A model generated the notes under the pieces. That model was not told the origin of the DNA. It saw only the letters and a program-made list of their open reading frames with translations, and ran no database searches. The position numbers and the translations under genes are program-made. From a virus, in the IMG/VR virus record IMGVR_UViG_3300038427_000181, positions 1 to 35,309 of that record: 35,309 nucleotides of DNA; one strand, written 5' to 3'. This document shows, in pieces, positions 8,321-27,828 of the stretch. The first letter of the stretch is position 1, and every line of letters starts with the position of its first letter.

Positions 8321-8321
8321 A

Positions 8322-8390: not shown

Positions 8391-8404
8391 CCGAAGGAGA
8401 TGCT

Positions 8405-8881: not shown

Positions 8882-8882
8882 A

Positions 8883-9904: not shown

Positions 9905-10509
9905 AGCATCAGGCCGGCAGGGCGGAAACCGTAAGGCTGACCCGAATCGAGAACATGCCGGAAGAGCGCCGGAAGTTCATCGAGGATTTATTGCGCCAGC
10001 GTCCGCGCCCTTCGGGGCAAAAGATTGCCGCGCTTTACAACGAGAAGTATCCGCCCAAACTGACCGGCCAGCCGGATCTGGATGCGTCCACGGTCTATTC
10101 GCATTTGAAGTTGCGGATGCAAGAGGTGCTCGACGAGATCCGCAGGCGCAAGGTGGAATATGCCGCTCAGATCGAGATGATCGGCGAGAAGGGCCTAGAC
10201 GAAGCGGCCCAAGCGAATATCTGGGAAGCGCTGCAAACCATGTCGCCTGGCCAGCTCATCCTACTGCGCAGCGTCGAGACCAAGCGCAAAGAGTTGGAAT
10301 TGAAGGAAAAAGCCCAGGCGACTCGCAACCAGGAACTCGAACTGAAGGTCAAGCAGTTCCAAACGCAGCAAGAACAGGGGAAGAAGGCAGTTGAGGAAGC
10401 CAGTGAAAAACTCGGAAAGGGCGAGTCCCTCACAGTTGAGGACATCAACCGCATCCGCGAGCGGACTTTCGGACTCCCGCCTGAAGCTGCCGCCGGTCAT
10501 CCAGCTTAG
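9901..10509 (+). CDS. Terminase small subunit, DUF3486 (Mu gp27)-like
   Basis: 202 aa, starting at GTG 9901 in a GTGA overlap. The N-terminal domain (IENMPEERRKFIEDLLRQRPRPSGQKIAALYNEKYPP, then LDASTVYSHLKLRMQEVLDEIRRR) is an HTH-like DNA-recognition fold as in DUF3486. A long charged coiled coil follows (about residues 120-185), a typical oligomerisation region. It should bind phage DNA ends and recruit the large terminase. The final 107 bases overlap the start region of the large subunit gene. Confidence 0.75.
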   Translation: MKHQAGRAETVRLTRIENMPEERRKFIEDLLRQRPRPSGQKIAALYNEKYPPKLTGQPDLDASTVYSHLKLRMQEVLDEIRRRKVEYAAQIEMIGEKGLDEAAQANIWEALQTMSPGQLILLRSVETKRKELELKEKAQATRNQELELKVKQFQTQQEQGKKAVEEASEKLGKGESLTVEDINRIRERTFGLPPEAAAGHPA

Positions 10510-11977
10510 GCCTTATCAGCAACGCTGGATTGACGATGCCTCGCGCTTCAAGTTGGCGGTAAAGTCCGCCCGCATCGGCTACAGCTACGCTACCGGCCTG
10601 GAAGCGATTTTCGATTGCCTGAAGCGCCTCACCACCTGGACGGTACTTTCCGCCTCCATGCCGCAGTCGGTGGAATTCATCGATCAATGCGAGAAAAACA
10701 TCGAGGCGATCAATGCCACGGCAGAGCTCTACGACGAGCCTTTTGCCGACGAGTTGGGCAAGACCGACATCCTGGTGAAGTGCGCGCGCTTCCCGAACGG
10801 CTCGCGGATCATGGCGCTGCCGGCGAATCCCCGTACAGCGCGCGGCTATCCCGGCAACGCGGTGCTGGACGAATTCGCCCACCACGAAGGCTCCTACGGG
10901 ATCTGGGCCGCCGTGTCGCGCCAGGTGGCGCTGGGACACAAGTTGCGGGTGCTCTCCACGCCCAACGGCGAACAAGGCAAGTTCTTCGATCTTGCCAAGG
11001 AATTCGGCCTAAGCGAAGGAGTGGCGCCCGCAACGAATCCCGTCAAAGTCGGCGCGTGGTCGTGCCACTGGATCGATGTGCGCACGGCGATCGCGGAAGG
11101 TTGCCCCATTGAGCTCGGCGAAATGAAGGATCTCTACAAAGGCGACGACGACACGTTCCGGCAGGAATTCTTCTGCATGTTCCTGAAGGCTACCGGGGCG
11201 TGGCTGTCGCTCGAACTGATTGCCGCGGCGGAGGATGATGCGGCGACGACCGAACTGCCGAGGTCCTTCGCTGGCGCTCAGGATGACAGTGCTCGAGGGT
11301 TCTTGTCCCTGGGCATCGACTTCGGCCGCTCGGGCGACCGCACTTGTTACTGGCTGGATGAATATGTTGGCGACATTTCCTGGACGCGTGCCGTGGGATG
11401 GATTCATAACATGCCATTCTTCGAGCCCCAGGGGAATGACCAGGTACATGCTCTGGCTCCGTTGGTAGAGCTTGCGGACCGCGTGGCGCTAGATTCCACG
11501 GGCATGGGCCTGCCGCTCTACGAATACTTCAACACCAAGTTTCCCGGCAAGGTGATGGGAGTGAATTTCGGCGGCTCCGTGCGGCGAGTCGAGCAGGGCG
11601 AAAAGGCGAGCGAACGCGGCCTGGCGTCCACGATCAAGATTAAGACCGACATGGCGGTGCGAATGAAGCGGCGGATGGAGCAGCGGAAGAACCGCATCCC
11701 GCGCAACATGGATGTCCGCCAGGAACTTCAGGCGATCAAGCGCGAGCAGACGGCTGGCGGAGCGATTACCTTCGACGCGCCGCGCATCGAAGTCGATACC
11801 CCAGGCGGCGTCGGCAAGAAGAAGGTGTACTCACACGCGGAAGCCTTTTGGGCGAAGGCTATGGCGGACCTGGCGGCGGAAGGCCCGGCGGCGAACTTTC
11901 TGGAAGACTCCTTGCTTGTCGGCAGTCCAGTGATGGACTACGCGGCGTTGGGAAGTTTTGATTTGAGGGAATTGTGA
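10403..11977 (+). CDS. Terminase large subunit (Mu gp28 type)
   Basis: 524 aa; packages DNA into the head. The ATPase part has RPYQQRWIDDA (adenine-contact region), the degenerate Walker A KSARIGYSYA (about 54-63, the Mu-type form rather than GxxGxGKT), Walker B NAVLDEFAHHEG (Asp156/Glu157) and coupling motif LSTPNG (184-189). The nuclease part has GIDFGRSGD (Asp306) and VALDSTGMG (Asp364). Residues about 284-299 (ELPRSFAGAQDDSARG) are repeat-derived and lie in the linker between the two domains. GTG 10403 is chosen for GAGGA five bases upstream. A TTG at 10391 is possible. It overlaps the small subunit gene. Confidence 0.9.
   Translation: MKNSERASPSQLRTSTASASGLSDSRLKLPPVIQLRPYQQRWIDDASRFKLAVKSARIGYSYATGLEAIFDCLKRLTTWTVLSASMPQSVEFIDQCEKNIEAINATAELYDEPFADELGKTDILVKCARFPNGSRIMALPANPRTARGYPGNAVLDEFAHHEGSYGIWAAVSRQVALGHKLRVLSTPNGEQGKFFDLAKEFGLSEGVAPATNPVKVGAWSCHWIDVRTAIAEGCPIELGEMKDLYKGDDDTFRQEFFCMFLKATGAWLSLELIAAAEDDAATTELPRSFAGAQDDSARGFLSLGIDFGRSGDRTCYWLDEYVGDISWTRAVGWIHNMPFFEPQGNDQVHALAPLVELADRVALDSTGMGLPLYEYFNTKFPGKVMGVNFGGSVRRVEQGEKASERGLASTIKIKTDMAVRMKRRMEQRKNRIPRNMDVRQELQAIKREQTAGGAITFDAPRIEVDTPGGVGKKKVYSHAEAFWAKAMADLAAEGPAANFLEDSLLVGSPVMDYAALGSFDLREL
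11260..11289. repeat. CHPERSEG-type dispersed repeat inside the large terminase gene
   Basis: GGTCCTTCGCTGGCGCTCAG then GATGAC, an imperfect copy of the common GTCCTTCGCTCCGCTCAGGATGAC-type bacterial repeat. On the minus strand it reads VILSASEGPR or CHPERQRRTS, the telltale peptides of this family. It is in frame and between the ATPase and nuclease domains. Confidence 0.75.
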
Positions 11978-12434: not shown

Positions 12435-12692
12435 ACGTGCTTTGAAAGAATTTACGCGCTGCGCATGAGTCGCTTTGAATCGCAAACGCAATTCGCAGCC
12501 GCGGTTGGCGTCACGCAGCAGACCGTTTCGGATTGGGAATCGGAGACAGTGCATGCCGCGCCTTCCTGCCAGTCCTATGTGCGCTTGGGCAACATTGCGC
12601 CTTACCCCGATTGTCTTTGGTTTTGGGACCAGGCTGGATTCGACCCTGATGCGATGCTCCGTGCAGCGAGAAAGCTCCTGAAAGAGTCATGA
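12387..12692 (+). CDS. HTH (XRE-like) regulator fused to a copy of the portal N-terminus
   Basis: 101 aa. Residues 1-10 (MNRFQRAWQA) duplicate the portal start. The HTH body is RIYALRMSRFESQTQFAAAVGVTQQTVSDWESE (helix 2 TQFAAAVG, recognition helix TQQTVSDWE), as in Cro/CI-type repressors. The end (FWDQAGFDPDAMLRAARKLLKES) is seen in similar single-domain regulators. No SD precedes ATG 12387. The original start may lie near residue 20. The stop overlaps the portal ATG (ATGA), preserving coupling. It probably regulates the divergent minus-strand gene through the adjacent palindrome. Confidence 0.75.
   Translation: MNRFQRAWQASTSRAVTCFERIYALRMSRFESQTQFAAAVGVTQQTVSDWESETVHAAPSCQSYVRLGNIAPYPDCLWFWDQAGFDPDAMLRAARKLLKES
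12679..12688 (+). repeat. Right 10-bp direct repeat flanking the inserted cassette
   Basis: TGAAAGAGTC, identical to 11975-11984. Its AAAGAG is the only SD-like sequence for the portal start at 12689. Confidence 0.8.
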
Positions 12693-15277
12693 ACCGATTT
12701 CAAAGAGCGTGGCAGGCACTGACGGATGGCGCGGTTCGGGCTGCTGACCAGCAGCTTGGCATTGCCGCGCCCGAAACCTCTGTAGGTCAAGCCGGATCGC
12801 CATCACTCGAAGGGCGGCCGACCGCAGGCCAGGTCATGAAGCCCACAGAGCGTGGGCCTTCGGTAGATACCGGGCTGCTTGCGCCGCAACGGCCGGTGAC
12901 GCCGCTGCCGCCCGCGGGACCTTCCACCATCGAGGCGATCGATGAGCAGGGCCGGGTGCAGATCTACGGGATCCCCGCTACGGCTTTTCCCGGAGGCTTC
13001 ATTGTTTCCCACGGCGAGTTCGACCAGAAGATGTACGGCTGGCGCGGCGTGAAGGTCTACGAGCAAATGCGCCGCACCAGCGCCCAGGTCGACGCCACGC
13101 TCGAGAGCGTGATCCAGCCGATTATTTCTGCCAATTGGGACATCGTCGCGGCGGAGGAAGAAGAGCAGCAGACAGAGGGAGACACACACCCGGTTTCGAG
13201 CACGGGCGCGGGCAAGGCGACCGAGACCAAGAAGAAGCAAATTGCCCTGGCGGCCAAGGAAAACCTGCTGCACAACCTCGAATGGCAGGACGCGCGCGGC
13301 AACTGGCACTCGCAGGATTTCAAGACGGAAGTGCTGCGCACGGCTCTGCTCGAAATCGCTACGGGATGTTCGGCGTTCGAGGAAGTTTACGCGGTAGACG
13401 GCGGCGCGCTACGTTTGGCTCGCCTGGTCGATTTGCCTCCCGTGACCTTTTACCAGTGGGACACCGACCAGGACGGCCGCACGCTGCGCAACCTAATTCA
13501 ATACGGCTGGCGGCGCAATCGCTACGAGCGGGTTGACGTGCCAGCGGAAAAAATCTGCACCTTTACTTATCGCATGGAGGGAGCGGACTTCTGGGGCCGG
13601 CCGATGACTCGCTCGGCCTACGAGCATTGGTACATTGTCGAGGGCCTCTACCGCATCGATGCCATTGCCGGCGAGCGCAACGGTATGGGGATTCCCTGCG
13701 TGACTTCGGGGCCCAATCCCAGCGCCGAAGACAAAGCAGCGGCGCGGGAATTTGTGACGGCGCTCGCCGCGCATGAAAAAACCGGCATGGTGCTGCCCAA
13801 TGGCTGGACGTTCGAGCTGGTAGGCGTGAAGGGCACGACGCACGATCTCTACGAGTCCATCAATCATCACAACCAGCAAATTTCGCGTTGCGCGCTGAAT
13901 ACTTTCATGGACATGGGCCGAGGCGGGAGAAGCGGTTCGAGCGGCAACCGCAGCCTGGGCGAATCAGCACAGCAGTTCTTCTGGCTCTGTCTACAGAACG
14001 AAGCCGACTCGATCGCCTCGCGCATCAGCAACAAAACCCTGCGCCGCTGGACTTATTACAACTACGGGCCCGGCGCGCCGGTGCCGCAACTGCGCGCCGC
14101 TAACGTGGTGGCGCGCTCGTTTGAGAAAGTTTCCGCGATGCTCTCCCAGCTTGCCGCGGGCGGCCTGGTGGTGAGCGATCAGGATATGCGCGACGAGATT
14201 CGCACCCAGCTTGGGATGCCGCAGGAAAGCCGCGTGGGGCTCGTAGCCGTCAAGGGAGAGACGATTGATCTGGGGAGTGGAGTCGAAATCTCCGGGAGAA
14301 GCCCTGGGCAGATTGACACGGGACCGGGAAGCCAGGGACAGCAGCAAAACGGGAGTCAGGAGTCAGGAGCCAGGAGTCAGAATAAACCTGCCGCGCCAGC
14401 GGAGCCACAAAAGCCGCAGCCAGTTCCCGGCGTGAAGCCCGGCAGGCCGATACAGGCGAGCGATGGCGCGCGGTTCGCTGGACGCTTGCGGGCCACAGTT
14501 TCGCCCTATTGGCACCAGCCCGTGGCCGAGACGGAGACCCACGTCGATTGGGGCGCCCACCACCGCAACATGACTACGGGTGAGGCGGCGGTGCGCGAGG
14601 CTTTGGAGACCGCCAAAATTGGCGTGATCCAGCGCGTGGCGGGGCAATTCTCGAAGCAACTCGCGGAAGGCAAAAAGCCCAGCGAGATTGTGCTACCGCA
14701 TGATGAGGAATTGCAAGCAGCAGTAGAGGGTTCTCTCCGGCCCGTCTATTCATCGGCCCGAAGGCATGTCCAGAGTGAAGTAAAACGTCTGCGCGCCAAG
14801 CGGCCCGGCAGCCCTTACGTCGCCGCCGTGGTGCCTGCCCTGTTGGCCGAAATCCCTGCTGTGACTCCCGAGCCTCTGCGCCTGATTGCTGAGGCTACGG
14901 TGCAGAAGATCCAGGGCCGGTACGCGCAGTCCGCCACCAATCAGGCTGCGGACCTAGGCGGCAAGATCCCGAGCCAAGAGAAAATGGCCGCCAATCTGAA
15001 TGGCCTCTCGGACGGTTTCCTGGACGACTTTGCAGGCCAGGCGGCGCGCCAGGCGGCGCACGCCGGACGCTGGGACGAGTTCAAGGAAATCGATGACGAG
15101 CTGCAGGGCAAGGAAGGACATTACGAGCGCAGCGAGCTGCTCGACCAGAATACTTGCGGGACGTGCCTCGGCGGCGACGGCAAGACTTGGGATTCGCTCC
15201 ACGAAGTGGACTGGAAGCCTGGAGACGATTGCAAAGGCGGAGATAATTGCCGCGGAACGCTGGTTGCGGTGTTTTGA
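12689..15277 (+). CDS. Portal protein (DUF935, Mu gp29 type) fused to a MuF-like head protein
   Basis: 862 aa. Residues 1-50 are a low-complexity start. The DUF935 portal core begins near 115 (KVYEQMRRTSAQVDATLESVIQPIISANWDI) and continues to about 520 (VVSDQDMRDEIRTQLGMPQ). A linker of about 530-580 is Gln/Ser/Pro-rich and includes GSQESGARSQN encoded by GAGTCAG heptamers. The rest (about 590-862) has a MuF-like helical region and the closing DQNTCGTCLGGDGKTWDS...DNC, like the conserved cysteine ending of Mu gp30/SPP1 gp7 proteins. It forms the dodecameric DNA entry channel with an internal head protein attached. Mu has two separate genes here. Confidence 0.85.
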   Translation: MNRFQRAWQALTDGAVRAADQQLGIAAPETSVGQAGSPSLEGRPTAGQVMKPTERGPSVDTGLLAPQRPVTPLPPAGPSTIEAIDEQGRVQIYGIPATAFPGGFIVSHGEFDQKMYGWRGVKVYEQMRRTSAQVDATLESVIQPIISANWDIVAAEEEEQQTEGDTHPVSSTGAGKATETKKKQIALAAKENLLHNLEWQDARGNWHSQDFKTEVLRTALLEIATGCSAFEEVYAVDGGALRLARLVDLPPVTFYQWDTDQDGRTLRNLIQYGWRRNRYERVDVPAEKICTFTYRMEGADFWGRPMTRSAYEHWYIVEGLYRIDAIAGERNGMGIPCVTSGPNPSAEDKAAAREFVTALAAHEKTGMVLPNGWTFELVGVKGTTHDLYESINHHNQQISRCALNTFMDMGRGGRSGSSGNRSLGESAQQFFWLCLQNEADSIASRISNKTLRRWTYYNYGPGAPVPQLRAANVVARSFEKVSAMLSQLAAGGLVVSDQDMRDEIRTQLGMPQESRVGLVAVKGETIDLGSGVEISGRSPGQIDTGPGSQGQQQNGSQESGARSQNKPAAPAEPQKPQPVPGVKPGRPIQASDGARFAGRLRATVSPYWHQPVAETETHVDWGAHHRNMTTGEAAVREALETAKIGVIQRVAGQFSKQLAEGKKPSEIVLPHDEELQAAVEGSLRPVYSSARRHVQSEVKRLRAKRPGSPYVAAVVPALLAEIPAVTPEPLRLIAEATVQKIQGRYAQSATNQAADLGGKIPSQEKMAANLNGLSDGFLDDFAGQAARQAAHAGRWDEFKEIDDELQGKEGHYERSELLDQNTCGTCLGGDGKTWDSLHEVDWKPGDDCKGGDNCRGTLVAVF
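14351..14381 (+). repeat. GGAGTCA heptamer tract in the portal-MuF linker
   Basis: GGAGTCA, GGAGTCA, GGAGCCA and GGAGTCA in tandem: a fourth heptamer sequence, inside a coding linker. Confidence 0.8.
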
Positions 15278-15280
15278 AAG

Positions 15281-15354
15281 GAAGTCATCAGTCATCAGTC
15301 ATCAGTCTTCAGTTAAGGCCTTTACTGATAACTGAGAACTGATAACTGAAAACT
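15281..15354 (+). repeat. TCAGT/ACTGA heptamer array, unit 10
   Basis: Five TCAGTNN units, a palindromic centre (TAAGGCCTTTA), five NNACTGA units. It ends two bases before the ATG of the gpG gene, with no SD between. Confidence 0.9.
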
Positions 15355-15356: not shown

Positions 15357-16034
15357 ATGCTACGCTTCACCCTCAAAGTCGTCAACGCGAAGGATCTCGA
15401 TATCGCCTTCACGGGCCTGGTCGCGCAGATCAAGGACTGGACGCCGCTTTGGCCGAAGGTCATCAATCAGATTTGCAAGGCGGAAGCGCGGGCGTTCTCG
15501 ACGGAGGGCCAATTAACTGCCCATGGCCAGTGGGCGCCTCTCACAAAAGAATACGCCGAGCGCAAGGGGAAAAAATATGGCTCGCGGTTAATTGAAAACG
15601 CTTCTGGGCGCTTGCGGGCAGCGTTGACCGGCCACACGGCTGATACTATAGAGGAAAGCGCCCCATTGCGAATGCGCTGGGGAACATCACTCCCGTATGC
15701 CTATTGGCAGCAAACAGGCTTTCATATTTCCCATGGTGGCCGCTACGGAAAACTTGGATCTCACATCAATCGGATGTTTGGTGTAAAGGCTCGCGAAAAA
15801 GGCGCGGACTGGGAGGAAACGGTCCCCGCACGGCGGGTGATCGATTTTACTGAAGAGGATCGGCAAATCATTCAGCGCCAGATGCAGCGCGAGGCGCTGA
15901 ATTTTGCCCGCCGGTTGGGATTCAAGATCGCAAGCGAGGCTGGATTCCGCGACGTAACCGTCAGCGAAGCCCGGCAAATGGGCGTAACGGCGCTGGCGGG
16001 CGGACCGGGGTACGAATGGGTGGGAGCAGTCTAA
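15357..16034 (+). CDS. Phage virion morphogenesis protein (Mu gpG type)
   Basis: 225 aa. The pattern of the virion morphogenesis family is clear: GQWAPLTKEYAERKGKK (about 58-74), LIENASGRLRAALTG, LRMRWGTSLPYAYWQQTGFHI (about 102-122), and near the end PARRVIDFTEEDRQIIQRQMQREA, the P.R...G.....D...I motif. In Mu-like phages it acts in head completion or head-tail joining. ATG 15357 follows the array with no SD. Location after the portal-MuF gene is the Mu order. Confidence 0.8.
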   Translation: MLRFTLKVVNAKDLDIAFTGLVAQIKDWTPLWPKVINQICKAEARAFSTEGQLTAHGQWAPLTKEYAERKGKKYGSRLIENASGRLRAALTGHTADTIEESAPLRMRWGTSLPYAYWQQTGFHISHGGRYGKLGSHINRMFGVKAREKGADWEETVPARRVIDFTEEDRQIIQRQMQREALNFARRLGFKIASEAGFRDVTVSEARQMGVTALAGGPGYEWVGAV

Positions 16035-16048: not shown

Positions 16049-16588
16049 ATGAAACGCGATTGGGCCTTAAAGCACGCCTGGATTCTTGCATTCTTGATCG
16101 CGGCGCTGATCGCCGTGTCGGGCCACTTCGACCCATCGCCTCCGGCAACCGTCGAGGCGGCGTCACAAGCTATTCCCTGGGCCGGATACATCTGGGACAC
16201 GCCGACAATCACAATCGCAAATGGAACGGCTACGACCACGGCAACGCCCAGCGCGGGTGTCTACCGCGCGCAGATAGTTTGGAAATTCGGCACCGTCTCG
16301 GGTTCCTACGGCACCTGCACGGTGCAGGCTTTGACCAGTTATGATGGCACGAACTTTGAAGCGCTAGGGTCAGCGGCTTCGATCACTGTGGCGACCGGGG
16401 AATACAACGTTTGGGACATTTACGGCGAGGCTCCGGACACGGTGGCGACTGTGACCACGCCTTCTGCCGGGACGACGTCGACCAGCTTGTCGGTGAACAG
16501 CTTTGGGTTTTTCACGGAGTATGTTTTCGCCTGCGGCGCCGGGTACGGAACCAGCGCGCCGGTGAGGATTAGCGTCATTTATAAGTGA
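16049..16588 (+). CDS. Secreted or membrane-anchored beta protein 1
   Basis: 179 aa. The N-terminus (MKRDWALKHAWILAFLIAALIAVSGHF) is a signal peptide or signal anchor, followed by a beta-rich domain rich in Thr, Ser and Gly (TITIANGTATTTATPSAGVYRAQIVWKFG, then CTVQALTSYDGTNFEALGSAASI). The alternation of strands suggests an immunoglobulin-like or jelly-roll fold, as in surface or fibre proteins. ATG 16049 with AAGGAG at eight bases is clearly better than 16016. It is the first of three exported genes between gpG and gpI, where Mu has none. Confidence 0.7.
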   Translation: MKRDWALKHAWILAFLIAALIAVSGHFDPSPPATVEAASQAIPWAGYIWDTPTITIANGTATTTATPSAGVYRAQIVWKFGTVSGSYGTCTVQALTSYDGTNFEALGSAASITVATGEYNVWDIYGEAPDTVATVTTPSAGTTSTSLSVNSFGFFTEYVFACGAGYGTSAPVRISVIYK

Positions 16589-16654
16589 AGTTGTCAGTCA
16601 TCAGTTATCAGTAGTCAGTAAAAGGGGTTACTGAGAACTGACAACTAAGAACTT
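16587..16654 (+). repeat. TCAGT/ACTGA heptamer array, unit 11
   Basis: Four TCAGTNN units, an AAAAGGGG centre, then three to four NNACTGA or NNACTAA units. It ends GAACTTTT at the start of the next gene, which has no SD. Confidence 0.9.
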
Positions 16655-16656
16655 TT

Positions 16657-18933
16657 ATGAAGACTCTGTGCCGCCTCACTCTCGTTTGGATTGGGTTGCT
16701 CGCGCTGCTCTGCGTGCCCTTGGCGCGGGCAACCACATATTATCTGCGCGCGGATGGTACAGTACTGGCAGCCAACAAGGCGAACGCCACGTCCTGCTCG
16801 GCAGCGGCTACGGCCATGAATGCCACGCAGCATAATGCAGCTACCTACACGGCGGGAGATACAATAGTTTCGTGCGATACCGGAGGAGTTTTTCGGGATG
16901 CCATCCTAAACCCGCCCACCGCTGGTAGCCTTGGAAGTATTATCAGCTATACTGCTTCGGGTTCTCCGACTTTCAACGGAGCAGACCTCGTTGGAACTTG
17001 GATAAATACAGCCGCCGACATAGATCAAAACTTTGCCGTTAGCGATAGTTTGACAGGTTGGACAGTCGGGGAATCTCCTCCAGGTTCTGTTGTGGCCCAA
17101 AACAACCGAGTCGAGGTCACGGCCACGGCCAGTGGTTATGGCAACTTTTCGAAAGACCCCGGATACCAAGGTGAGTATTGGGCTTATTTTACTATCTATG
17201 TCGTTTCCGGTTTCGCCATGACCAACGGGGACGTGATGGATGGCAGCGCAATCAACGATAGCGATGCTGGGGCTCCTCGCGTGAGACTTAGCATCACGCA
17301 GACGGCTGGAGTGCTCAAGTGGTATTGCGTGTATGGAACTGATGGTGGCACGGTTGACGTGGCATCCGGTGTGACAGTCACTACCAACGCTTGGTACGAA
17401 GTCCTAATGCATTACAAGAAGGCCACGGGGGCTGGAGCCAACAATGGCATGGCTCAAATTTGGGCCATTCGCAGCGGAGTTTCAACTGCCCTTCTCGATG
17501 TGACTAATGTTGACTCCGATACTACTTGGGCGCATGACCTTAAAATGGGCATTAACTTGTCCCCTTCTGCAACGGGAACACTCTACTTCGGAGATGTAAA
17601 ATATGATCACACTTATCCTGTCGGTCTGAATCTCTGGCGATCAACATTTAGCACAGCAACGCCCAATCAGGTTTTCTTTGACGGCACGCGTGGAACCGCG
17701 CAGACTTCCGCAAGTTCGTTGGCTGTGACTGGTGATTGGTACTACGATGCTGTAAGTCGGCTCTATACCTACCGGGCTACAGACCCAGACTTACTCGTTT
17801 CTCCTGGAGTAGAAGCATCGGTACGCTCCTACGGTATGCAGGCATGGGAAAGCTATCTGTCCATCCAAGGTTTACATTTCACCAAAGCCAACTCCAATGG
17901 CCTCGATATCACTGCAAGTTGGGAAGGTGATCTTACTGGATTGAGTGTCACAGGAAGTCTCTCTGATTACAATTATGATAAGGGATTTGCTGTAGATACT
18001 TGGGAACATAACGTCAACGGGGTGACATTCGACAGTGATACAGCTACCTATAACGGTCGCTGGGGAATACATTTCGGAACCGTTTCGGACAGCGTGACCA
18101 ACATTCTTTTGAAGCACATTGTAGCCCACGATAACGGATGGACTTCTACTTACGGGGGTGGAGGCATCGGGGCATTTGGCACGGGCACAACCAATTGCAC
18201 CGTCGAGCAAAGCCAATCCTACAACAACACCAATAATTTAGGTATCTGGTTGGATACGGTGGGTGCTGGGTGTGCTGCGACGCAAAATCAAACCTCGGGC
18301 AACTGGCGTGGGATGCAGATTGAGGCTTCAGATGGCGTGGACATATACGACAATCTCTCTTGGGACAATATAGATTCGGGCTTTGAGTTGAGCCGACGAA
18401 GTCATAATAACCATTTCTATAACAACGATTCTTGGGGCAATTTAATCGGACTGGCCGTGCGTTCTTCGGCCGGTGGCGTGCCTGATGGATTCACTCGGAA
18501 TCTACTGAAAAACAACATTCTGTCTGGCAATACGACTGCCCTTTATGCGCATGATGGCGGGGAGAACGATGGGACGAACGGAAGCAGGAATCTGTATCAG
18601 TACGATGCGCTTGGCCCTGCCGCAACCAACTTCATTACTTGGGGGGCATCAACTTTTTCGACTTACGCGGCATGGAGAGCCGACCCCGGATGCGGTGCGA
18701 CAGATTGCTCGTACTCCATAGAGGCCGACCCGCAGTTCACAAACGCCGCAGGCGGGGACTTCAGCTTGAAATCGACCTCTCCCGCGCGGCACGCGGGCAC
18801 CAATCTAGGCTCGTCCTACAACATCGGGCTCCGCTGTGAGGGGGCTTTCCCATACCTCACAACGACGCAGGGAGGCAAGTGGGACATCGGCGCGTGCGTG
18901 AAGAAGGCGCCGGTGATCGAGACAGTGCAATGA
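16657..18933 (+). CDS. Secreted right-handed beta-helix protein
   Basis: 758 aa. Signal peptide MKTLCRLTLVWIGLLALLCVPLARA is followed by a mature part beginning TTYYLRADG. Residues about 125-320 read as a LamG/concanavalin-like beta sandwich (NNRVEVTATASGYGNFSKD...WYEVLMHYKKATG...LYFGDVKYDHTYP). Residues about 390-640 show parallel beta-helix repeats with Asn ladders (YNYDKGFAV, HNVNGVTFDSDTATYNGRWGIHFG, SYNNTNNLGIWLD, NNHFYNNDSWGNLIG). Possibly a carbohydrate-active or surface protein. A signal peptide is unusual in a virion gene. ATG 16657 has no SD. Codon use looks more AT-rich than its neighbours, so a separate origin is likely. Confidence 0.8.
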   Translation: MKTLCRLTLVWIGLLALLCVPLARATTYYLRADGTVLAANKANATSCSAAATAMNATQHNAATYTAGDTIVSCDTGGVFRDAILNPPTAGSLGSIISYTASGSPTFNGADLVGTWINTAADIDQNFAVSDSLTGWTVGESPPGSVVAQNNRVEVTATASGYGNFSKDPGYQGEYWAYFTIYVVSGFAMTNGDVMDGSAINDSDAGAPRVRLSITQTAGVLKWYCVYGTDGGTVDVASGVTVTTNAWYEVLMHYKKATGAGANNGMAQIWAIRSGVSTALLDVTNVDSDTTWAHDLKMGINLSPSATGTLYFGDVKYDHTYPVGLNLWRSTFSTATPNQVFFDGTRGTAQTSASSLAVTGDWYYDAVSRLYTYRATDPDLLVSPGVEASVRSYGMQAWESYLSIQGLHFTKANSNGLDITASWEGDLTGLSVTGSLSDYNYDKGFAVDTWEHNVNGVTFDSDTATYNGRWGIHFGTVSDSVTNILLKHIVAHDNGWTSTYGGGGIGAFGTGTTNCTVEQSQSYNNTNNLGIWLDTVGAGCAATQNQTSGNWRGMQIEASDGVDIYDNLSWDNIDSGFELSRRSHNNHFYNNDSWGNLIGLAVRSSAGGVPDGFTRNLLKNNILSGNTTALYAHDGGENDGTNGSRNLYQYDALGPAATNFITWGASTFSTYAAWRADPGCGATDCSYSIEADPQFTNAAGGDFSLKSTSPARHAGTNLGSSYNIGLRCEGAFPYLTTTQGGKWDIGACVKKAPVIETVQ

Positions 18934-18940
18934 AGGAAAA

Positions 18941-19028
18941 GAAGTCATCAGTTGTCAGTTATCAGTTATCAGTAAGGGCCTTAACTGACGACTGAAAACT
19001 GAGAACTGAGAACTGATGATTGACGACT
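18941..19028 (+). repeat. TCAGT/ACTGA heptamer array, unit 12
   Basis: Five TCAGTNN units, a centre (AAGGGCCTTA, partly palindromic), six NNACTGA units ending near GATTGACGACTTA. Confidence 0.9.
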
Positions 19029-19048
19029 TATCGAAAAGGAGGAACGAG

Positions 19049-20692
19049 ATGTTCAAAAAGATTATTGTAAGCCTCTTCTTGACTCTGGCCCTGGCGGTCA
19101 GCACCTTCGGCCAGACGGCTACGCCTTACGGACTCAGTTTCCCCGCAGGGACTCTGTCCGTGGCGGAGGCGACGCAGGTCATCAACTTTAAGAACACGTC
19201 AGGCGCCATCCTGACGGGATTTGCCATGACGGCCACAGGAACGAATTCGGCGGATTTTGGATTTGCAGCCGCGCCGGTGGCCCCAAATGTTACGGCCTGC
19301 GCCACATCGATTGCGGTGAACGCAGCCTGCAACATCACCGTAACCTTCACTCCGGGCGGCCTGGGCGCACGCAATGGAAATCTTTCCATTGCCTACGTAG
19401 GCGCTGCGGGTTCCCCCCTGGTTCTACCCCTGGCGGGCTACGGCGCGGCCTCTCCGGGCGCGGCACAAGGCAGCATGGCGCTTATGCCCCTAGGATTCGC
19501 CAACGCCGGCGCTACCGGCACAACGCTCTATAGCTTGGCCAAACTGACGGGGGCGCCCTCCACGGCGGTAATCGCGACCACCGCTGACAACAAAACCGGC
19601 GGCGTATTGGGCGTGGTGATTGCCGGGGCCGGGATCACGGGCAGCGCCACAATTTTGCAGCAGGGGCAAACCCTCTGCAATTTCGATAACAGCACAGTGG
19701 CGGGGGATTTCGTTACCGTGAGCGTCAGCGTGAATGGCGACTGCGCGGACATCGGTTCGACGCTGCCTGGCGATGGCAGCCAGGTGCTGGGCCGCGCGGT
19801 GAGCACCAACACCGGCGCGGGTCTTTACCTGGTCGCGTTGACCTCCGGCCTGGGCGTTTCCGGTGGTAGCGGAGTTGCCGCCACCCAGGCCGCATTCACT
19901 TCGGCCCCCACTCCCAGCGCGGCGGCAGGCGTGACTTTGGGGACAGCGTTGCTGCCCTTCGGCACGGTGTACTTCGGCACTGCGGCCACCAACACCTACA
20001 GCCTCAATCCAGTCAGCGGGCTCGCTGCGGCTCGGCCGATGTGGTTTGGGGATTATGGCGCAAATGGCGCCATTGCGTTTGCCGATCCCACTACAAAGAC
20101 CAAGATGGCGCTGATCGATTTGCACAGCGCTACCGGCACGGCCACCCTGGCTTTTACGCACTCAGCCAGCCGCACCCTGACTTTTGCCGATCCAGGGGGC
20201 AACGACAGTATGGCCTATCTCGCCGCTACGCAGACCTTCACCGGCAAAACTCTGACTGCTCCAGTCATCGTTTTACCGACGCCGACTGCGGCTGGAGCGA
20301 CGTTGGCGCCGACTTGCGCTACATCCGGCACCACGATCCTGTTCGGCGCAGCGTCGGGCGAGGTTGTGACGCTTCCCGCTGCGAGCTCCTCAACCATTGG
20401 TTGCTACTGGGATTTCTACACCAGCGTGACGGACACCACCAACTACAACGAAATCCAGGTCACAGGCAGCAATTACCTGCTGGGCTCAACTCTATCGTGT
20501 ACCGCCAGCGCGTGTCTTATGTTCGCGGCGGATGGCAGCTCGATAAAGGCCATCAAAATGGGGCAGACAACCACCAACTGCGCGGCTGGAAGTTGGTTCC
20601 GCGTTACGGGCATCTCCGCCACACAATGGTGGATTCAAGGGGTGAATTTTGGTTCGGGCACGATGGTAACGCCGTTTACGGCCACACCGTAG
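19049..20692 (+). CDS. Secreted ASH-like domain protein with fibre-like C-terminus
   Basis: 547 aa. Signal peptide MFKKIIVSLFLTLALAVSTFGQ. Residues about 25-130 match an ASH/choice-of-anchor-D type beta domain (SVAEATQVINFKNTSGAIL, SADFGFAA, CNITVTFTPGGLGARNGNLSIAY), common in exported bacterial proteins. The C-terminal half has the fibre-type phrase MAYLAATQTFTGKTLTAPVI (about 390-409), of the TLTNKTLT class found in phage tail fibres, then a beta-rich end. It looks like a fusion of a bacterial surface domain to a phage fibre tail. SD AAAAGGAGG at six bases supports ATG 19049 over the array-borne ATG at 19016. Confidence 0.75.
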   Translation: MFKKIIVSLFLTLALAVSTFGQTATPYGLSFPAGTLSVAEATQVINFKNTSGAILTGFAMTATGTNSADFGFAAAPVAPNVTACATSIAVNAACNITVTFTPGGLGARNGNLSIAYVGAAGSPLVLPLAGYGAASPGAAQGSMALMPLGFANAGATGTTLYSLAKLTGAPSTAVIATTADNKTGGVLGVVIAGAGITGSATILQQGQTLCNFDNSTVAGDFVTVSVSVNGDCADIGSTLPGDGSQVLGRAVSTNTGAGLYLVALTSGLGVSGGSGVAATQAAFTSAPTPSAAAGVTLGTALLPFGTVYFGTAATNTYSLNPVSGLAAARPMWFGDYGANGAIAFADPTTKTKMALIDLHSATGTATLAFTHSASRTLTFADPGGNDSMAYLAATQTFTGKTLTAPVIVLPTPTAAGATLAPTCATSGTTILFGAASGEVVTLPAASSSTIGCYWDFYTSVTDTTNYNEIQVTGSNYLLGSTLSCTASACLMFAADGSSIKAIKMGQTTTNCAAGSWFRVTGISATQWWIQGVNFGSGTMVTPFTATP

Positions 20693-20776: not shown

Positions 20777-22315
20777 ATGGCGATTCGATATCTGGTTCCT
20801 GATGGAAAGCATTTGCCGGTGAGCGGGGAAGACGGCAAGGTCGATCACCGGCTGATGGGCGCGGCGAAGGCGGCGCTGACCAGCCCTGGCGGGCATCGCG
20901 GTAACAAGTACGAAGGCCCGGGCAAAGAGGAAGCCATTCGCAAGCTCAAGGCGCTTTACAAATCGGAAGGCTTGGATTGGGAAGCTTCGGACGCGAATGT
21001 CGGCGGCCTGCACTTCACCATTACGCTTTCGGATGCGCTGTCTGCCGGAGCGTCGCGCCAGCCCATCGCTCTTACCGGCCATTGGGTCAAGCGCACCGGG
21101 CAGCACATCGACATTACCCGGGCGGTTCTCGACGAGATGTTTCAGAACTTCGCCAAGGAGCCTATCGGGGTAAATGTTGACTACGATCATGCCAGCGAAT
21201 CGCCCCTACTCGGCTTGCTGGGCCCGTCGCCTTCGGCCGGTCGCCTGGTCAAGCTCGATCCGGCCGAGGCCTTCAATGGCACCGATCGCGACATCCTCTA
21301 CGGTTACTACGAACCCACGGATAAAGCGCGCGAACTCGTGCAAGGCAGAGAGTATCGCTACTTCTCTGTGGCTGCAGACAAGATCCCCGATAGGAAAACC
21401 GGAGCAGACCAGGGCTGGACAATCACTTCGGTGGCTCTGACCAATAAACCCGTGATCAGCGAGTTGCCGGAGATCCGGCTTTCGGAAGGGCAGGAACTTT
21501 TGATGGACGCTGGGAGCGTCCATGTTCCCACGAATATCTCGAACCCCGCCGGTGGCGGGAGAAATCAAGGAGGCAATCACATGGCACTACCCAAAGTAAC
21601 GCTCAAGAACGCCGCCGACGGCACGCACGAAGTTCACGGCCCCGACGGTCAGATTGGAACGGTGGAAGACAAGCACATTCGGCAATACGCGCAAGAGCAC
21701 CTCGATATGTGCAACAGCGCGAAGGCGAGCGAGGATGCCGCAGCCGCGCGGGCCACGCTGCTTTCGGAAATCGGCGCGCCTGGCAAGACTTCGGCAGAAG
21801 TGAAAGCTCTTATCGACCGCACTGCCGCGCCCATCAAGACCGAAGCGCAACTGCTTTCGGAAACCATCGGCGCGGACGGCATCGTCGATCGCGCCAAGCT
21901 CCTCGTCTTCGTCCGCAACGGTGAGCTCAAGGCTGACGCGCCGTTTGTGATGTCGGACGCCCAGGGGCGCGTAGAGAAGGCTCTCGAAAAGGGCTTGCTG
22001 ACGCCCGCACAGGTAAAAAGCGGCTCGCCGTTGCGGCTCGCTTTAAGCGACGGCGCATCCTTTAAGGCGCTCATCGAGGACCGGCCTCCGGTTGTGGCGG
22101 TGAATACAATCATCGGCGCCGGCGCCGGGGATTCCGACAAGTCGGAACTCGAGAGGACCGAGGTGCAGCTCTCGGATGCGGTCACCGCGCGCATGACGGC
22201 AGCCAAGGAAACCCGCGATCAGGCGGAGCACTTCGTGGTCGGAACGCCGGAAGGGCGCGAGCTCTGGGAATCGGCACGCAAGTTGCGGCTTGCCGCAAAT
22301 GCGGAAAAGGACTGA
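20777..22315 (+). CDS. Prohead protease/scaffold precursor (Mu gpI type)
   Basis: 512 aa. Residues about 1-70 (HRLMGAAKAALTSPGGHRGNKYEGPGKEEAIRKLKALYKSEG) are an N-terminal extension seen in phage proteases and capsid maturation proteins. The protease part (about 100-240) has HIDITRAVLDEMFQNF, VNVDYDHAS, AGRLVKLDPAE, LYGYYEPTDKARELVQGREYRYFSVA and ALTNKPVISELPEIRLSE, matching Mu-like prophage I protein. It should cleave the scaffold during capsid maturation. From residue 269 the scaffold part follows. ATG 20777 is chosen. A GTG at 20756 lies in the hairpin. Confidence 0.85.
   Translation: MAIRYLVPDGKHLPVSGEDGKVDHRLMGAAKAALTSPGGHRGNKYEGPGKEEAIRKLKALYKSEGLDWEASDANVGGLHFTITLSDALSAGASRQPIALTGHWVKRTGQHIDITRAVLDEMFQNFAKEPIGVNVDYDHASESPLLGLLGPSPSAGRLVKLDPAEAFNGTDRDILYGYYEPTDKARELVQGREYRYFSVAADKIPDRKTGADQGWTITSVALTNKPVISELPEIRLSEGQELLMDAGSVHVPTNISNPAGGGRNQGGNHMALPKVTLKNAADGTHEVHGPDGQIGTVEDKHIRQYAQEHLDMCNSAKASEDAAAARATLLSEIGAPGKTSAEVKALIDRTAAPIKTEAQLLSETIGADGIVDRAKLLVFVRNGELKADAPFVMSDAQGRVEKALEKGLLTPAQVKSGSPLRLALSDGASFKALIEDRPPVVAVNTIIGAGAGDSDKSELERTEVQLSDAVTARMTAAKETRDQAEHFVVGTPEGRELWESARKLRLAANAEKD
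21581..22315 (+). CDS. Nested scaffolding protein (Mu gpZ-like internal start)
   Basis: 244 aa in the same frame as the protease C-terminus, starting at ATG 21581 (MALPKVTLKNAADG). AAGGAGG (21567-21573) lies seven bases upstream, an ideal ribosome site inside a coding gene. This is the lambda Nu3 and Mu Z arrangement: a short scaffold made in excess from an internal start and co-assembled with the longer protease form. The sequence is helical with a charged C-terminus (RKLRLAANAEKD), as expected for scaffold-capsid contact. The function call rests on this architecture. Confidence 0.75.
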   Translation: MALPKVTLKNAADGTHEVHGPDGQIGTVEDKHIRQYAQEHLDMCNSAKASEDAAAARATLLSEIGAPGKTSAEVKALIDRTAAPIKTEAQLLSETIGADGIVDRAKLLVFVRNGELKADAPFVMSDAQGRVEKALEKGLLTPAQVKSGSPLRLALSDGASFKALIEDRPPVVAVNTIIGAGAGDSDKSELERTEVQLSDAVTARMTAAKETRDQAEHFVVGTPEGRELWESARKLRLAANAEKD

Positions 22316-22419: not shown

Positions 22420-22923
22420 ATGGATTATTTCAGCTACAGGTACGCAGGGCTGACGATGGTGGATAAGATGGCCGCCGTAAGCCCCGATTCTACTGTGTTC
22501 CCGGAGGGCTTCATTCTGCCCGCCGGTCAGAATGCGGCATTCCTCGGCATCTGCGAGAAGGGTGTGCTCCCCGACGCGATTCCCGGCTATGTGGGCGGCG
22601 TGTACGCAGGCTTCAGCGGCCAAGCGTGGCCGGTAGGCCCGGGCGGCAGCGCCATTGTTACGCCCAGGACGCCGCAAGGGCAGTCGCGCTCGCTGGCGGT
22701 CGGCCCCATCCGCGTTCCGGCGATTGCAGCCGCCGGGATCGCTCGCGGTGACCGCCTGATTATCGGCGATACCATGGGACGCCTGGCCAGCGTTGTGACC
22801 CTGGGGCTCCCAGCCGGCACTAACATCAATCTGGTGGGTACGGCCGACACGGCCGCCACGGCGGCGGACCAGGTGGTTTACGTCTGGCTTTCTCCGCTCG
22901 GCGATCGCCACGACACGGTGTAG
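22420..22923 (+). CDS. Capsid-associated (decoration-like) protein
   Basis: 167 aa. SD GAAGGGA at nine bases. The C-terminal half (IRVPAIAAAGIARGDRLIIGDTMGRLASVV, then NLVGTADTAATAADQVVYVWLSP) has the G.A...GD....D..GR......G.A...A.AGD.V.V pattern of DUF2190-type capsid decoration proteins. Its place between scaffold and capsid agrees. The first 60 residues are an extra region. The decoration role is inferred. Confidence 0.6.
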   Translation: MDYFSYRYAGLTMVDKMAAVSPDSTVFPEGFILPAGQNAAFLGICEKGVLPDAIPGYVGGVYAGFSGQAWPVGPGGSAIVTPRTPQGQSRSLAVGPIRVPAIAAAGIARGDRLIIGDTMGRLASVVTLGLPAGTNINLVGTADTAATAADQVVYVWLSPLGDRHDTV

Positions 22924-23116: not shown

Positions 23117-24061
23117 ATGGATGCAAGTGCAGTTCACATAACGACGCTCGATCCACGCATCAGCGTGGCGTACCAAAACAAGCAATTCATTCACGAGCAA
23201 GTGTGGCCCATCGTGCCGTGCGACAAACTCAGCGGCATGTACAGCAAATACTCGAAACAAAGCTTCCGGGCCCAACTCGACAGCCTCGATGAAGGCGGCT
23301 ATCCCAGGCGTTATCGCCTGGACATCGAGCCATACGGCCGGTATGAATGCCGTGGGCACGGCGTTAGCGTGATGCTGCTCGACGATACCCGCGACAATGC
23401 CGACAACCCGGCCGAAGTCGATATCCAGCACCGGAACTTCGTGCAGGCAGTCATCGCGCTCAACCGTGAAATCGAGCTGATCAACTCCCTCACCGCGGCG
23501 GCGATTCCGCAAAATGTCACGCTGGCGGGCGTAACTCAATTTTCCAACGCCGCGTGCAACCCGCTGCCTATCATCCGTGGCTGGTGCGTAACCATCGAGC
23601 AGGCTATTGGCGTCTCTCGCTCCGAAATGAGCCTGCTGCTGCCGCGTCCGGTGCTCGATGCGCTGATGGACAACGTCAATATGCGCGGCTACGTGCAATT
23701 TACGCAGAACCTGTTCAACGAACCCATCGGCCCGCAGAACATCGCCCGCGCCCTGCAGATCAAGAGCATCATCGTGGCGGAAAATCTGGGCCTGACTTCC
23801 GCCGAGGGGGCTGCCGACGTGCTTGCTTACAATTGGCCTTCGGCGGTGGGCGCCTCCATCTGCCTACTGTTCTACAGCACGCAAACTCCCGCGGCGCTGA
23901 CGCCGAATTTTGGCTATTACTTCCGCTCGAAGATCGGGTACTACCCGCTGCGCGAAGTCTATAAAAAGACAGCGCGCGGCACCCTGATCATCAGCGAGGA
24001 AAAGCGCGACTCGATCATGGTCGAACCGAATGCCGCGTTTTTGGGGATCAACCCGATTTAG
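23117..24061 (+). CDS. Major capsid protein (Mu gpT/HK97-fold type)
   Basis: 314 aa, directly after scaffold and decoration genes. The start (LDPRISVAYQNKQFIHEQVWPIVPCDKLSGMYSKYSKQSFRA) and centre (RDNADNPAEVDIQHRNFVQAVIALNREIELINSL) match phage major capsid proteins that keep an intact N-terminus. RPVLDALMDNVNMRGYVQFTQNLFN and AALTPNFGYYFRSKIGYYPLREVYKK are the P-domain and A-loop-like regions. GAGAGG lies five bases upstream. It should form the icosahedral shell. No cleavable N-terminal region is obvious, consistent with a separate scaffold. Confidence 0.85.
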   Translation: MDASAVHITTLDPRISVAYQNKQFIHEQVWPIVPCDKLSGMYSKYSKQSFRAQLDSLDEGGYPRRYRLDIEPYGRYECRGHGVSVMLLDDTRDNADNPAEVDIQHRNFVQAVIALNREIELINSLTAAAIPQNVTLAGVTQFSNAACNPLPIIRGWCVTIEQAIGVSRSEMSLLLPRPVLDALMDNVNMRGYVQFTQNLFNEPIGPQNIARALQIKSIIVAENLGLTSAEGAADVLAYNWPSAVGASICLLFYSTQTPAALTPNFGYYFRSKIGYYPLREVYKKTARGTLIISEEKRDSIMVEPNAAFLGINPI

Positions 24062-24062: not shown

Positions 24063-24138
24063 AAAAACAGTTGTCAGTGGTCAGTTGTCAGTTCTTAGTT
24101 ACTGATAACTGATCACTGATGACTAAATACTGTTTTTA
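24063..24138 (+). terminator. Candidate terminator formed by heptamer array unit 13
   Basis: The extended stem AAAAACAGT...ACTGTTTTT ends in five T. The array therefore resembles a rho-independent terminator downstream of the major capsid gene, the expected site for partial termination, although the stem is AT-rich at its base. Confidence 0.4.
24068..24132 (+). repeat. TCAGT/ACTGA heptamer array, unit 13
   Basis: The left half starts AAAAACAGTTGTCAG. The right half ends CTAAATACTGTTTTT, so the outer stem is extended (AAAAACAGT with ACTGTTTTT). Confidence 0.9.
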
Positions 24139-24641: not shown

Positions 24642-24648
24642 CCGGGAG

Positions 24649-24717
24649 GGAAGTTGTCAGTTCTCAGTTCTCAGTTTTCAGTAACTGATAACTGAGGACT
24701 GATGACTGAGAACTTTT
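24649..24717 (+). repeat. TCAGT/ACTGA heptamer array, unit 14
   Basis: GAAGT edge, five TCAGTNN units, TCAGTAACTGA centre, four NNACTGA units, GAACTTTTC edge. The start codon follows with no SD. Confidence 0.9.
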
Positions 24718-24718: not shown

Positions 24719-25279
24719 ATGTCCTACACGACTGTCGATGACGTCGCGGCTTTGTTTCCGACCTTCTCGCGCAATGGGCCGAAAGGCCCTGCGGATGCCG
24801 TGATCCAGGGATTCATCGATCGCGAGGCTTCGCAGATCAATGGCATTCTTCAGCAGCGGTTCAGTGAAGCCATCGCCACCTTTCCAGGGGCCAATCTGGC
24901 GGCGCAATTCGTCGCCTACATTGCCAGTTTTGCCTCTGGGTCCGACCAACTAAATCTGTTGGTCCAGGCCAATACCTGGGCAGCGGCGGGAGAGCTAGCG
25001 ACGATCTTTGAGGCGACTATCGGTGCGACGGTCGCGAAAGTGGCGGCAGCGTATGAAGCGAAGGCGCAGGAAATTTATTGGGAACTGGAAGGCCGTGATG
25101 AAAAGGGTGCGCTGAGAAAACCCGCTGTCGGGCGGTTCGACAAGCTGTTCGATGCGAGCGCGCGCTCGATCAGCCCCCGTGCCGAATTTTTTGGCGTGGC
25201 CGGGGGCGATCAGCCGCGGCAGAAAGATGAGGACGTGACCGGCTACTTTAACAAGTGGCCGGGGACGAAAGATGATTAG
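24719..25279 (+). CDS. Head completion protein, DUF1320 (Mu gp36) type
   Basis: 186 aa. The DUF1320 start is recognisable: YTTVDDVAALFPTFSRN, then DAVIQGFIDREASQINGILQQRF (residues about 30-52), then helices with ALTEK-like spacing (AAQFVAYIASFASGSDQLNLL). Mu gp36 and HK97 gp6-like proteins of this kind join head to tail. It has no SD and follows array unit 14. The C-terminus ends within array unit 15. Confidence 0.75.
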   Translation: MSYTTVDDVAALFPTFSRNGPKGPADAVIQGFIDREASQINGILQQRFSEAIATFPGANLAAQFVAYIASFASGSDQLNLLVQANTWAAAGELATIFEATIGATVAKVAAAYEAKAQEIYWELEGRDEKGALRKPAVGRFDKLFDASARSISPRAEFFGVAGGDQPRQKDEDVTGYFNKWPGTKDD

Positions 25280-25343
25280 TTATCAGTCATCAGTAATCAG
25301 TAAGTGCTTTAGCTGAAGACTGACAACTGAAAACTGACGACTT
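25276..25343 (+). repeat. TCAGT/ACTGA heptamer array, unit 15
   Basis: The stop codon TAG (25277-25279) lies within the array. Three to four TCAGTNN units, a centre (AAGTGCTTTAG) and four NNACTGA units, ending GACTTC. Confidence 0.9.
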
Positions 25344-26227: not shown

Positions 26228-26881
26228 ATGGCGAACATCACGAAAGTCTGGACGCCCAAGAACGTCATCCTGAATCCTGCGGAGGTTTTCATCGATGTGC
26301 AGGCGCCGGTTTCGGCGATCCCGCCCACACTGGGCACCAATATCTGGGCGGCTTCGGGAACGTACAGCATCGATACTACTGGCCAGCCCATGGACAATGG
26401 CAGTTCCGGAGTCTATGCGGGCGCGACAGCGGGGCCGTTGGTGGCGAGCGCGGCGCTGAAGTTTGACGAGATTCGATCAGATGCCCACGGCGCGCGTATT
26501 GACGCGGCGTTCATCAGCGCTGCCTGCGACCTGGAATTTACGGCGAATGAGTTACTGCTTTCGAACCTGGCGAAGTACCTGCCGGCGGCGGGCGCCTACA
26601 CCGACGTCGTACTCGGTGCCAACCCTGCGGCGGACTTCCTGCAGATTGGCTCGCCGCAAAGTGCCAACGTTACGTTCCACAGTTTTCTTTTCACTTCGCC
26701 GGACCACGGCGCGGCGGGGAAATTCATCGTCGCACAGTTCTATCGATGCCTGCTGATGGGTCCGATCCCGCTGGCCTTTGACCGCAAAAAGATCACGCAG
26801 CAGAAAATCAAGGTGCGCGCGTATCTCGATCTAACGCGGGTTGCCGGCGATATGGTTGGGCAGATTGTGAAGACGCTGTGA
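26228..26881 (+). CDS. Tail tube protein, copy 1
   Basis: 217 aa. The beta-rich sequence with TAGPLVASAALKFDEIRSD, ARIDAAFISAACDLEFTANELLLSNLAKYL (about 95-124), LPAAGAYTDVVLG and the end KVRAYLDLTRVAGDMVGQIVKTL fits tail tube subunits, which precede the chaperone and tape measure. It is a clear paralogue of the next gene, sharing LPAAGAYT, the AAGK motif, and the DLTR then VKT ending. One of the two may be a tube initiator or spacer. Confidence 0.75.
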   Translation: MANITKVWTPKNVILNPAEVFIDVQAPVSAIPPTLGTNIWAASGTYSIDTTGQPMDNGSSGVYAGATAGPLVASAALKFDEIRSDAHGARIDAAFISAACDLEFTANELLLSNLAKYLPAAGAYTDVVLGANPAADFLQIGSPQSANVTFHSFLFTSPDHGAAGKFIVAQFYRCLLMGPIPLAFDRKKITQQKIKVRAYLDLTRVAGDMVGQIVKTL

Positions 26882-26883
26882 GG

Positions 26884-26959
26884 GAAGTGACCAGTTATCA
26901 GTCCTCAGTAATCAGTAAAAACACTTACTGAGAACTGAAAACTGAAAACTGAAGACTTC
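26884..26959 (+). repeat. TCAGT/ACTGA heptamer array, unit 16
   Basis: GAAGT edge, TCAGTNN units, an AAAAACACTT centre, NNACTGA units, GAAGACTTC edge. The next gene has its own GGAGG. Confidence 0.9.
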
Positions 26960-26975: not shown

Positions 26976-27827
26976 ATGGCCGCAGTTGTCACCAAAGTTC
27001 CCGTACCCGCCAACGTCTGGCAGGGCACGGTGGATTTCTACATCGACTCGACGCCGCCGAGTTCAGAGGTCACGCCCACCCAGGCGGATGAAATTGCTCT
27101 GGATGCCAACGGACAGCCCGCCTCGCTGCAGATGGCCGTGACCGCGGCGACCAACGCCTCGCCCATCGTCATTACCGGAGCTTCCACCACAGGCTTCGCC
27201 CTGAACGATATCGTGACCGTAGCCAGCGTCACTGGGAACACCAATGCCAACGGCATTTGGACGATTTCCGCGCTGGACGCGACGCACATCACCCTAAAGG
27301 GCTCTGCGGGCAATGCCGCATGGATTTCCGGCGGCACGGTAACTCGCGGCGCGCACGTCGGCTTACTCGAAGGTCCCACCACCGTAACCCTCAATCCGAA
27401 AATCGAGGATATTGGCAGCGACTCGTTTGAAGGTCCACACGATGCTGCGCTGCAAAATGTGGAAGTGGATGTGGAGACGGTAATGAAGGAAGTGGACCTC
27501 TACAAACTGCTCGCGATGACTTCGAACTTGAACTATGGCAACTTTGCCGCGCTGCCAGCTGCGGGCGCCTACACGACGCTGGGGGTGCAGTTCGGCGGGG
27601 TGCAGTCAGCCTCGATGAACCTGCACCGCCTGATGTTTGTCGGACCCAATCGCGCGGCAGCGGGCAAGTGGATTTACGTCTATCTGTTCAAGGGCTACAA
27701 CAGCGACCCGATTCAATTGACCTTCCATCGCTCTAAGGCGAATTTGTGGAAGGTGAAGTTTATGGGAGTGGCAGATCTCACTCGCGCCTTGGGCGATGAA
27801 TTGTGCCATGTGGTCAAGACGAAGTAG
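26976..27827 (+). CDS. Tail tube protein, copy 2, with inserted beta domain
   Basis: 283 aa. Its flanks match copy 1, but residues about 48-125 hold an extra domain (LQMAVTAATNASPIVITGASTTGFALNDIVTVASVTGNTNANGIWTISALDATHITLKGSAGNAAWISGGTVTR), the TNASPIVVT...GD.V.I..V.GNTAANG.W.I type beta domain frequent in phage virion proteins. It is inserted after the first strands, and the tube sequence resumes at AHVGLLEGPTTVTLNP. The insert probably projects from the tail surface. SD GGAGG at seven bases. Confidence 0.75.
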   Translation: MAAVVTKVPVPANVWQGTVDFYIDSTPPSSEVTPTQADEIALDANGQPASLQMAVTAATNASPIVITGASTTGFALNDIVTVASVTGNTNANGIWTISALDATHITLKGSAGNAAWISGGTVTRGAHVGLLEGPTTVTLNPKIEDIGSDSFEGPHDAALQNVEVDVETVMKEVDLYKLLAMTSNLNYGNFAALPAAGAYTTLGVQFGGVQSASMNLHRLMFVGPNRAAAGKWIYVYLFKGYNSDPIQLTFHRSKANLWKVKFMGVADLTRALGDELCHVVKTK

Positions 27828-27828
27828 G

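Follow-up and report, generated by a model that had tools for sequence, protein, structure and literature searches.

The locus raises the question of why three consecutive genes with export signals should lie inside the head module of a tailed phage, and where their products act. The window, the whole stretch of DNA analysed here, is a virus record from IMG/VR, 35,309 bases long. Three of its genes, all on one strand (16049-16588, 16657-18933 and 19049-20692), stand between a gpG-like gene and the gene for a Mu I-type protease. Host range is determined by fibre-type proteins, whose assembly is assumed to take place in the cytoplasm. The reading preferred here, with a probability of about one half, is that genes 1-3 are an optional late cassette, found in a clade of Mu-like transposable phages of Acidobacteriota, and encode Sec-exported adhesin- or fibre-type proteins whose site of action is outside the cell, during virion release or adsorption. 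If true, Sec export of fibre-type proteins would amount either to a new virion assembly route or to secreted phage factors working on a polysaccharide-rich soil matrix.

Phage type and host

The genes around the locus are all on the plus strand. The terminase large subunit (10391-11977; PF03237, E 7.6e-13; phrog_2, E 1.9e-29) is followed by an 862-residue portal protein of the Mu gp29 family (12689-15277; PF06074, E 1.5e-39), whose C-terminal part is similar to a gpF-type region. A gpG-like virion morphogenesis or neck protein (15357-16034; Phage_tail_S PF05069, E 1.5e-7; phrog_26, E 4.3e-13) forms the left border of the locus, and the Mu I-type protease/scaffold (20777-22315, with an alternative upstream start at 20756; PF10123, E 4.1e-15; phrog_328, E 1.5e-15) forms the right border. 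A cement-like protein (22420-22923; PF09956, E 0.0013, below the cut-off) and the major head protein (23117-24061; phrog_1005, E 6.7e-31) come next. The gp29-type portal, G and the I protease (PF06074, PF05069 and PF10123) thus stand in Mu order. Since a Mu-type transposase (Mu-transpos_C, E 6.9e-9, over the cut-off) is encoded upstream of the window's left end in an overlapping record, the phage is a Mu-like transposable phage. The overlapping record is identical to the window across the 20,483 bases checked and therefore adds no independent evidence.

The order terminase, portal, G, I protease and major head protein is shared with the head module (portal, F, G, I, T) of Mu, B3 and D3112. The junction between G and I differs, however. 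In Mu it holds only a terminator and a late promoter and is a transcription boundary, whereas in the window it holds signal-bearing adhesin/fibre genes. The initial annotation had stated that Mu-like phages carry no extra genes at this place, which is incorrect: five genes, including a reverse transcriptase, are found there in MuM16-1 and three small ones in D3112, so that a junction never carrying genes is ruled out. The gpG-I junction is an optional, natural cargo site. In Shewanella phage vB_SspS_MuM16-1 (L238, 18697-21970), the cargo includes the reverse transcriptase together with a regulator and may be a defence island of the retron/DRT type.

A portal alignment was searched against 84,980 bacterial and archaeal genomes and gave 15 related loci, of which 14 lie in Acidobacteriota MAGs. 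TCAGTTN, a 7-nt unit repeated in the window, is present in 13 of 149 Acidobacteriota genomes, with the reversed control pattern nearly absent. Together, the portal relatives and the shared repeat make Acidobacteriota, an abundant and hard-to-culture soil phylum, a well-supported host phylum. In the window these units form palindromic arrays of 25-80 bp, TCAGTTN facing AACTGAN, at most gene boundaries. One array (16589-16654) lies in the interval between genes 1 and 2 (16589-16656) and a second copy (18942-19014) in the interval between genes 2 and 3 (18934-19015). Further arrays lie at 332-356, 2702-2776, 4681-4752, 6193-6260, 7201-7266, 8319-8391, 8880-8950, 15276-15354, 24068-24137, 24647-24717, 25275-25337, 26881-26950, 27826-27901 and 30133-30213. 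Since TCAGTTN units also occur in Acidobacteriota genomes, this style of intergenic repeat is common to phage and host.

Export signals and the three genes

Signals were scored with a heuristic that looks for a charged n-region, a hydrophobic core of 10-14 residues and small residues at positions -3 and -1. All three genes have this n/h/c-region layout, with scores of 4.61 (gene 1), 4.51 (gene 2) and 4.46 (gene 3). These lie within the range of 3.78-4.78 given by a calibration set of 14 E. coli Sec precursors, and above those of shuffled N-termini. At a threshold of 4.0, the portal-related clade has 26 passing ORFs among 258 non-core ones with 150 or more residues (10.1%), compared with 2 of 301 ORFs in control phages (0.7%), 0-0.5% of shuffled N-termini (0.2% for the clade's non-core ORFs) and none of the 158 core phage proteins of the clade. 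A ribosome site stands directly before the Met of the signal in gene 1 (AAGGAG) and in gene 3 (AAGGAGG, for which the start at 19049 is preferred over 19016); gene 2 has no clear Shine-Dalgarno sequence upstream. The run of three signal-bearing genes proposed from the first reading of the DNA is thus confirmed, and their predicted export is well supported on sequence grounds. Signal peptides in Acidobacteriota phage contigs should not be read by annotators as evidence of host contamination.

The mature parts of the signal-bearing proteins of the clade contain 1.51% Cys, compared with 0.87% in core proteins, and 19 of 26 have an even number of Cys residues (p 0.015), compared with 61 of 149 core proteins. 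In the window itself, genes 2 and 3 have odd counts. The enrichment and the even counts are modest evidence, compatible with disulfide formation outside the cytoplasm.

Gene 1 (SP1, 16049-16588) encodes 179 residues, a signal sequence or signal anchor followed by a beta-sandwich-type domain. Counting the window, homologues with 38-52% identity occur in eight distinct phages (with L117, L026, L188, L196, L198, L201 and L202; after dereplication L196 stands for the same phage as L062 and L100, and L202 for the same as L203). In all eight the gene follows the portal or gpG and precedes the I protease, and Cys90 and Cys162 are invariant in the alignment. The N-terminus is positively charged and hydrophobic in seven of the eight, mostly ending in an A-x-A-type site (ASA, VHA, VKA, LGA), and Shine-Dalgarno matches of 5-6 nt precede the start codon in the six relatives checked. 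The structure model has a helix at residues 10-24 and strands from 53 to 178, with a mean pLDDT of 59. In the window's own protein the A-x-A site lies about 16 residues beyond the hydrophobic core, and the signal may therefore remain uncleaved and serve as an anchor.

The exception is L188, whose homologue has no hydrophobic N-terminus, its 5′ end being a read-through repeat. Either the signal is not strictly required or this copy is decaying. In this Acidobacteriota MAG (5568-5700), translated intergenic repeat (KEEGRSQKAEVRSEKPEGRNQKQ...) stands in place of the signal, which looks as though the start of the gene had been overwritten. In a scan of 396 Acidobacteriota genomes, gene 1 turned up once, on a contig that also carries a related portal, which indicates that it travels with phages.

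Gene 2 (SP2, 16657-18933) encodes a predicted secreted protein of 758 residues. The beta-helix of the initial annotation, probably a right-handed one, is plausible but weakly supported: there is a match to DUF5123 with an E of 0.0013, and the PDB search gave none. A signal-bearing 548-residue protein in L095 shares 25% identity with gene 2 over 432 residues, and no homologue of gene 2 was found at the portal-I slot of the relatives. In 50,697 phage records, tblastn gave no match to genes 2 and 3, and single-sequence scans with genes 2 and 3, the major head protein and the portal returned only one overlapping record.

Gene 3 (SP3, 19049-20692) encodes 547 residues, comprising a signal peptide, a choice-of-anchor-D/ASH-type domain at about residues 23-135, in which Cys84 and Cys94 are invariant, and a variable, beta-rich, fibre-like part with motifs such as TQTFTGKTLTAPVI. 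The domain matches are weak in the window, with NF012200 (E 9.6e-7; 29.3 bits against a cut-off of 45) and PF22073 (E 7.4e-5) both below cut-off, but the homologues in L196 and L202 pass NF012200 with 61.9 and 65.7 bits, which supports the bacterial ASH-like domain proposed earlier. Homologues are present in L196, L198 and L202, each after gene 1; the signal is kept in all four phages, window included, and AAGGAG sites precede the gene in the three relatives. Like secreted choice-of-anchor-D/ASH proteins (NF012200), the gene 3 family has such a domain behind a signal peptide, together with a conserved Cys pair; unlike them, it has a single domain joined to a fibre-like phage part and lies in a phage late operon. 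A genome-contig scan with gene 3 alone found no relative. Matches to gene 3 occur in 15 of 396 Acidobacteriota genomes. They nearly always involve the ASH region at its N-terminus and often fall inside large open frames, which suggests that the domain was taken from host surface proteins. The structure model is poor, with a mean pLDDT of 43. Fold searches (PDB and viral) with genes 1 and 3 gave generic beta-sandwiches and no specific match, and a fold assignment was dropped for both genes because their models (mean pLDDT 59 and 43) are too poor. Insertion of genes 1-3 as a one-off event from the host is ruled out by the homologues in L196, L198, L201 and L202.

A fourth gene of the same type lies on the plus strand in the tail-fibre region (33592-35043). 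Its product has a hydrophobic N-terminus (MRKNFIATVWVLGGMLLIG), a fibre-like segment (NTWTALQTFSLGI) and then a repetitive beta-type body. Its signal score is 3.45, below those of genes 1-3, and a family search gave no match.

The slot between portal and protease in related phages

In several relatives the slot contains unrelated genes that also carry signals. L117 has two (270 and 694 residues) beside its gene 1 homologue, L124 has three, and L070, L110 and L188 have one each (594 residues in L188). For portal-to-I gaps of at least 700 bp, a signal gene is present in 10 of 16 clade phages compared with 1 of about 31 others; these counts are of distinct phages after dereplication, uncorrected for shared ancestry, and are lower bounds because ORFs were called longest first, an approach that overlooked genes 1 and 3 of L062/L100. 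The sole phage outside the clade with such a gene, L188, comes from an Acidobacteriota genome. The slot is empty in many clade phages, so a gene there is not essential. Signal genes are also found directly after the major head gene (L070, L087, L091 and L198) and upstream of the terminase (L112, L113 and L126).

The middle slot gene of L124 matches PHROG tail-fibre/collar families with an E down to 1.4e-6, and a signal-bearing 895-residue gene of L113, located upstream, matches the tail fibre phrog_2282 with an E of 3e-21. These two matches tie export signals to fibre-type proteins and support the fibre or adhesin character first suggested for the locus. The likeness to PHROG tail fibres (phrog_2282, phrog_16641 and phrog_523) extends to similar-type motifs in gene 3 and in the 33592-35043 gene. 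The clade genes differ from these families in carrying an N-terminal Sec-type signal, and genes 1-3 match no PHROG family, tail-fibre families included.

Signal-bearing proteins of about 160-170 residues with recurring mature starts (QQVGDQTLLKMKF..., QKTYRDATGGFLNETTFL...) occur in L087 (12018-12506), L091 (13965-14444), L027 (16942-17460), L028 (13717-14211) and L033 (17356-17844), the L087 and L091 copies directly after the major head gene, and possibly form a family of exported decoration-like proteins. The 694-residue slot protein of L117 (3382-5466) has many Ser/Asp-rich repeats (ADSESNTASDAIARL); low complexity is the probable cause of its scores with MSCRAMM Sdr-type adhesin models.

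Another 7-nt repeat, CTGCNNN, codes for parts of signal peptides (AYCLLPTA / AFCLLPSA) in L026 (15466-15594), L202 (3230-3319 and 2571-2700) and L196 (7977-8090). There are 3 hits in 2.1 kb of signal-coding DNA compared with 0.028 per kb overall, and signal sequences may arise from repeat DNA.

Possible roles of the exported products

In an optional late cassette, genes 1-3 would be translated together with the head genes and their products would cross the inner membrane through the host Sec machinery. Disulfides would form in the periplasm, and the proteins would finally be located at the envelope surface or beyond it. At that location the three products, an ASH-domain adhesin, a beta-sandwich protein and a probable beta-helix protein, may bind or cut surface polysaccharide, which would ease the release and dispersal of virions or alter adsorption. 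That genes 1 and 3 are conserved in order and lie on the late strand favours a settled function, and the same-place genes in related phages suggest that some phage fibre-type proteins leave the cell rather than stay in the cytoplasm. In Mu, annotated late proteins that use host export are the SAR endolysin and the o-spanin of lysis; genes 1-3, in contrast, encode large, beta-rich proteins of adhesin/fibre type outside the lysis cassette.

A more tentative reading is that the products are virion fibres or decorations routed through Sec, which would be exported, folded with disulfides in the periplasm and attached to particles during or after lysis. The position after the major head gene is that of decoration genes in many phages, and signal genes are found both there and in the tail-fibre position of the window; signals also occur on genes with tail-fibre similarity, and gene 3 has fibre-type motifs. 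However, a docking domain was not identified, assembly of tailed-phage particles normally takes place in the cytoplasm, and no described case of a Sec-exported virion protein of a tailed phage was found in the open-access literature searched. The broader proposal that tailed phages of Acidobacteriota routinely send fibre or decoration proteins through host Sec, to join the particle outside the cytoplasm, is unlikely; if true, it would be an assembly route not described for tailed phages. Nor did the open-access literature searched yield any account of signal peptides as a regular feature of tailed-phage fibre-type genes; signal-peptide counts and phage inventories are given in PMC5723332 and PMC8597652, from which the pattern of signal-bearing fibre genes is absent.

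Somewhat less probable again than Sec-routed fibres are moron or lysogenic-conversion genes, in which case the prophage would express surface proteins that change the host surface or block superinfection, from a cargo site between two late transcription units. This explanation is kept alive by the nature of the gpG-I junction, a terminator/late-promoter boundary in Mu and a cargo site in MuM16-1, and it would suit the host-type ASH domain of gene 3 and the slot content, which differs among relatives. Against it, gene 3 accompanies gene 1 in four phages, with order and late-strand orientation preserved, and the single occurrence of gene 1 among 396 Acidobacteriota genomes is on the related-portal contig. 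The region also has no promoter-like excess, with 4 sigma-70-like sites against 4.5 expected in a model outside which acidobacterial promoters fall. That the N-termini are membrane-attached or fortuitous hydrophobic stretches, derived in part from intergenic repeats read in frame, is very improbable: the signals of L026 and L202 are partly coded by CTGCNNN repeats and repeats are translated in L188, but complete n-, h- and c-regions with A-x-A sites, Shine-Dalgarno sequences placed at the Met of the signal, conservation with some 50% identity and the signal frequency of 10% compared with 0.7% argue for export.

Apart from the late cassette of the preferred reading, helical proteins of 190-200 residues with twin-Arg or lipoprotein-like N-termini are encoded in the window (6278-6883; MRRRGFLTLAGWLAVVPFLPAYLAC), in L062 (2940-3506) and in L119 (10476-11036). 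Those of the window and L062 are encoded upstream of the terminase, close to where the lysis region would be expected.
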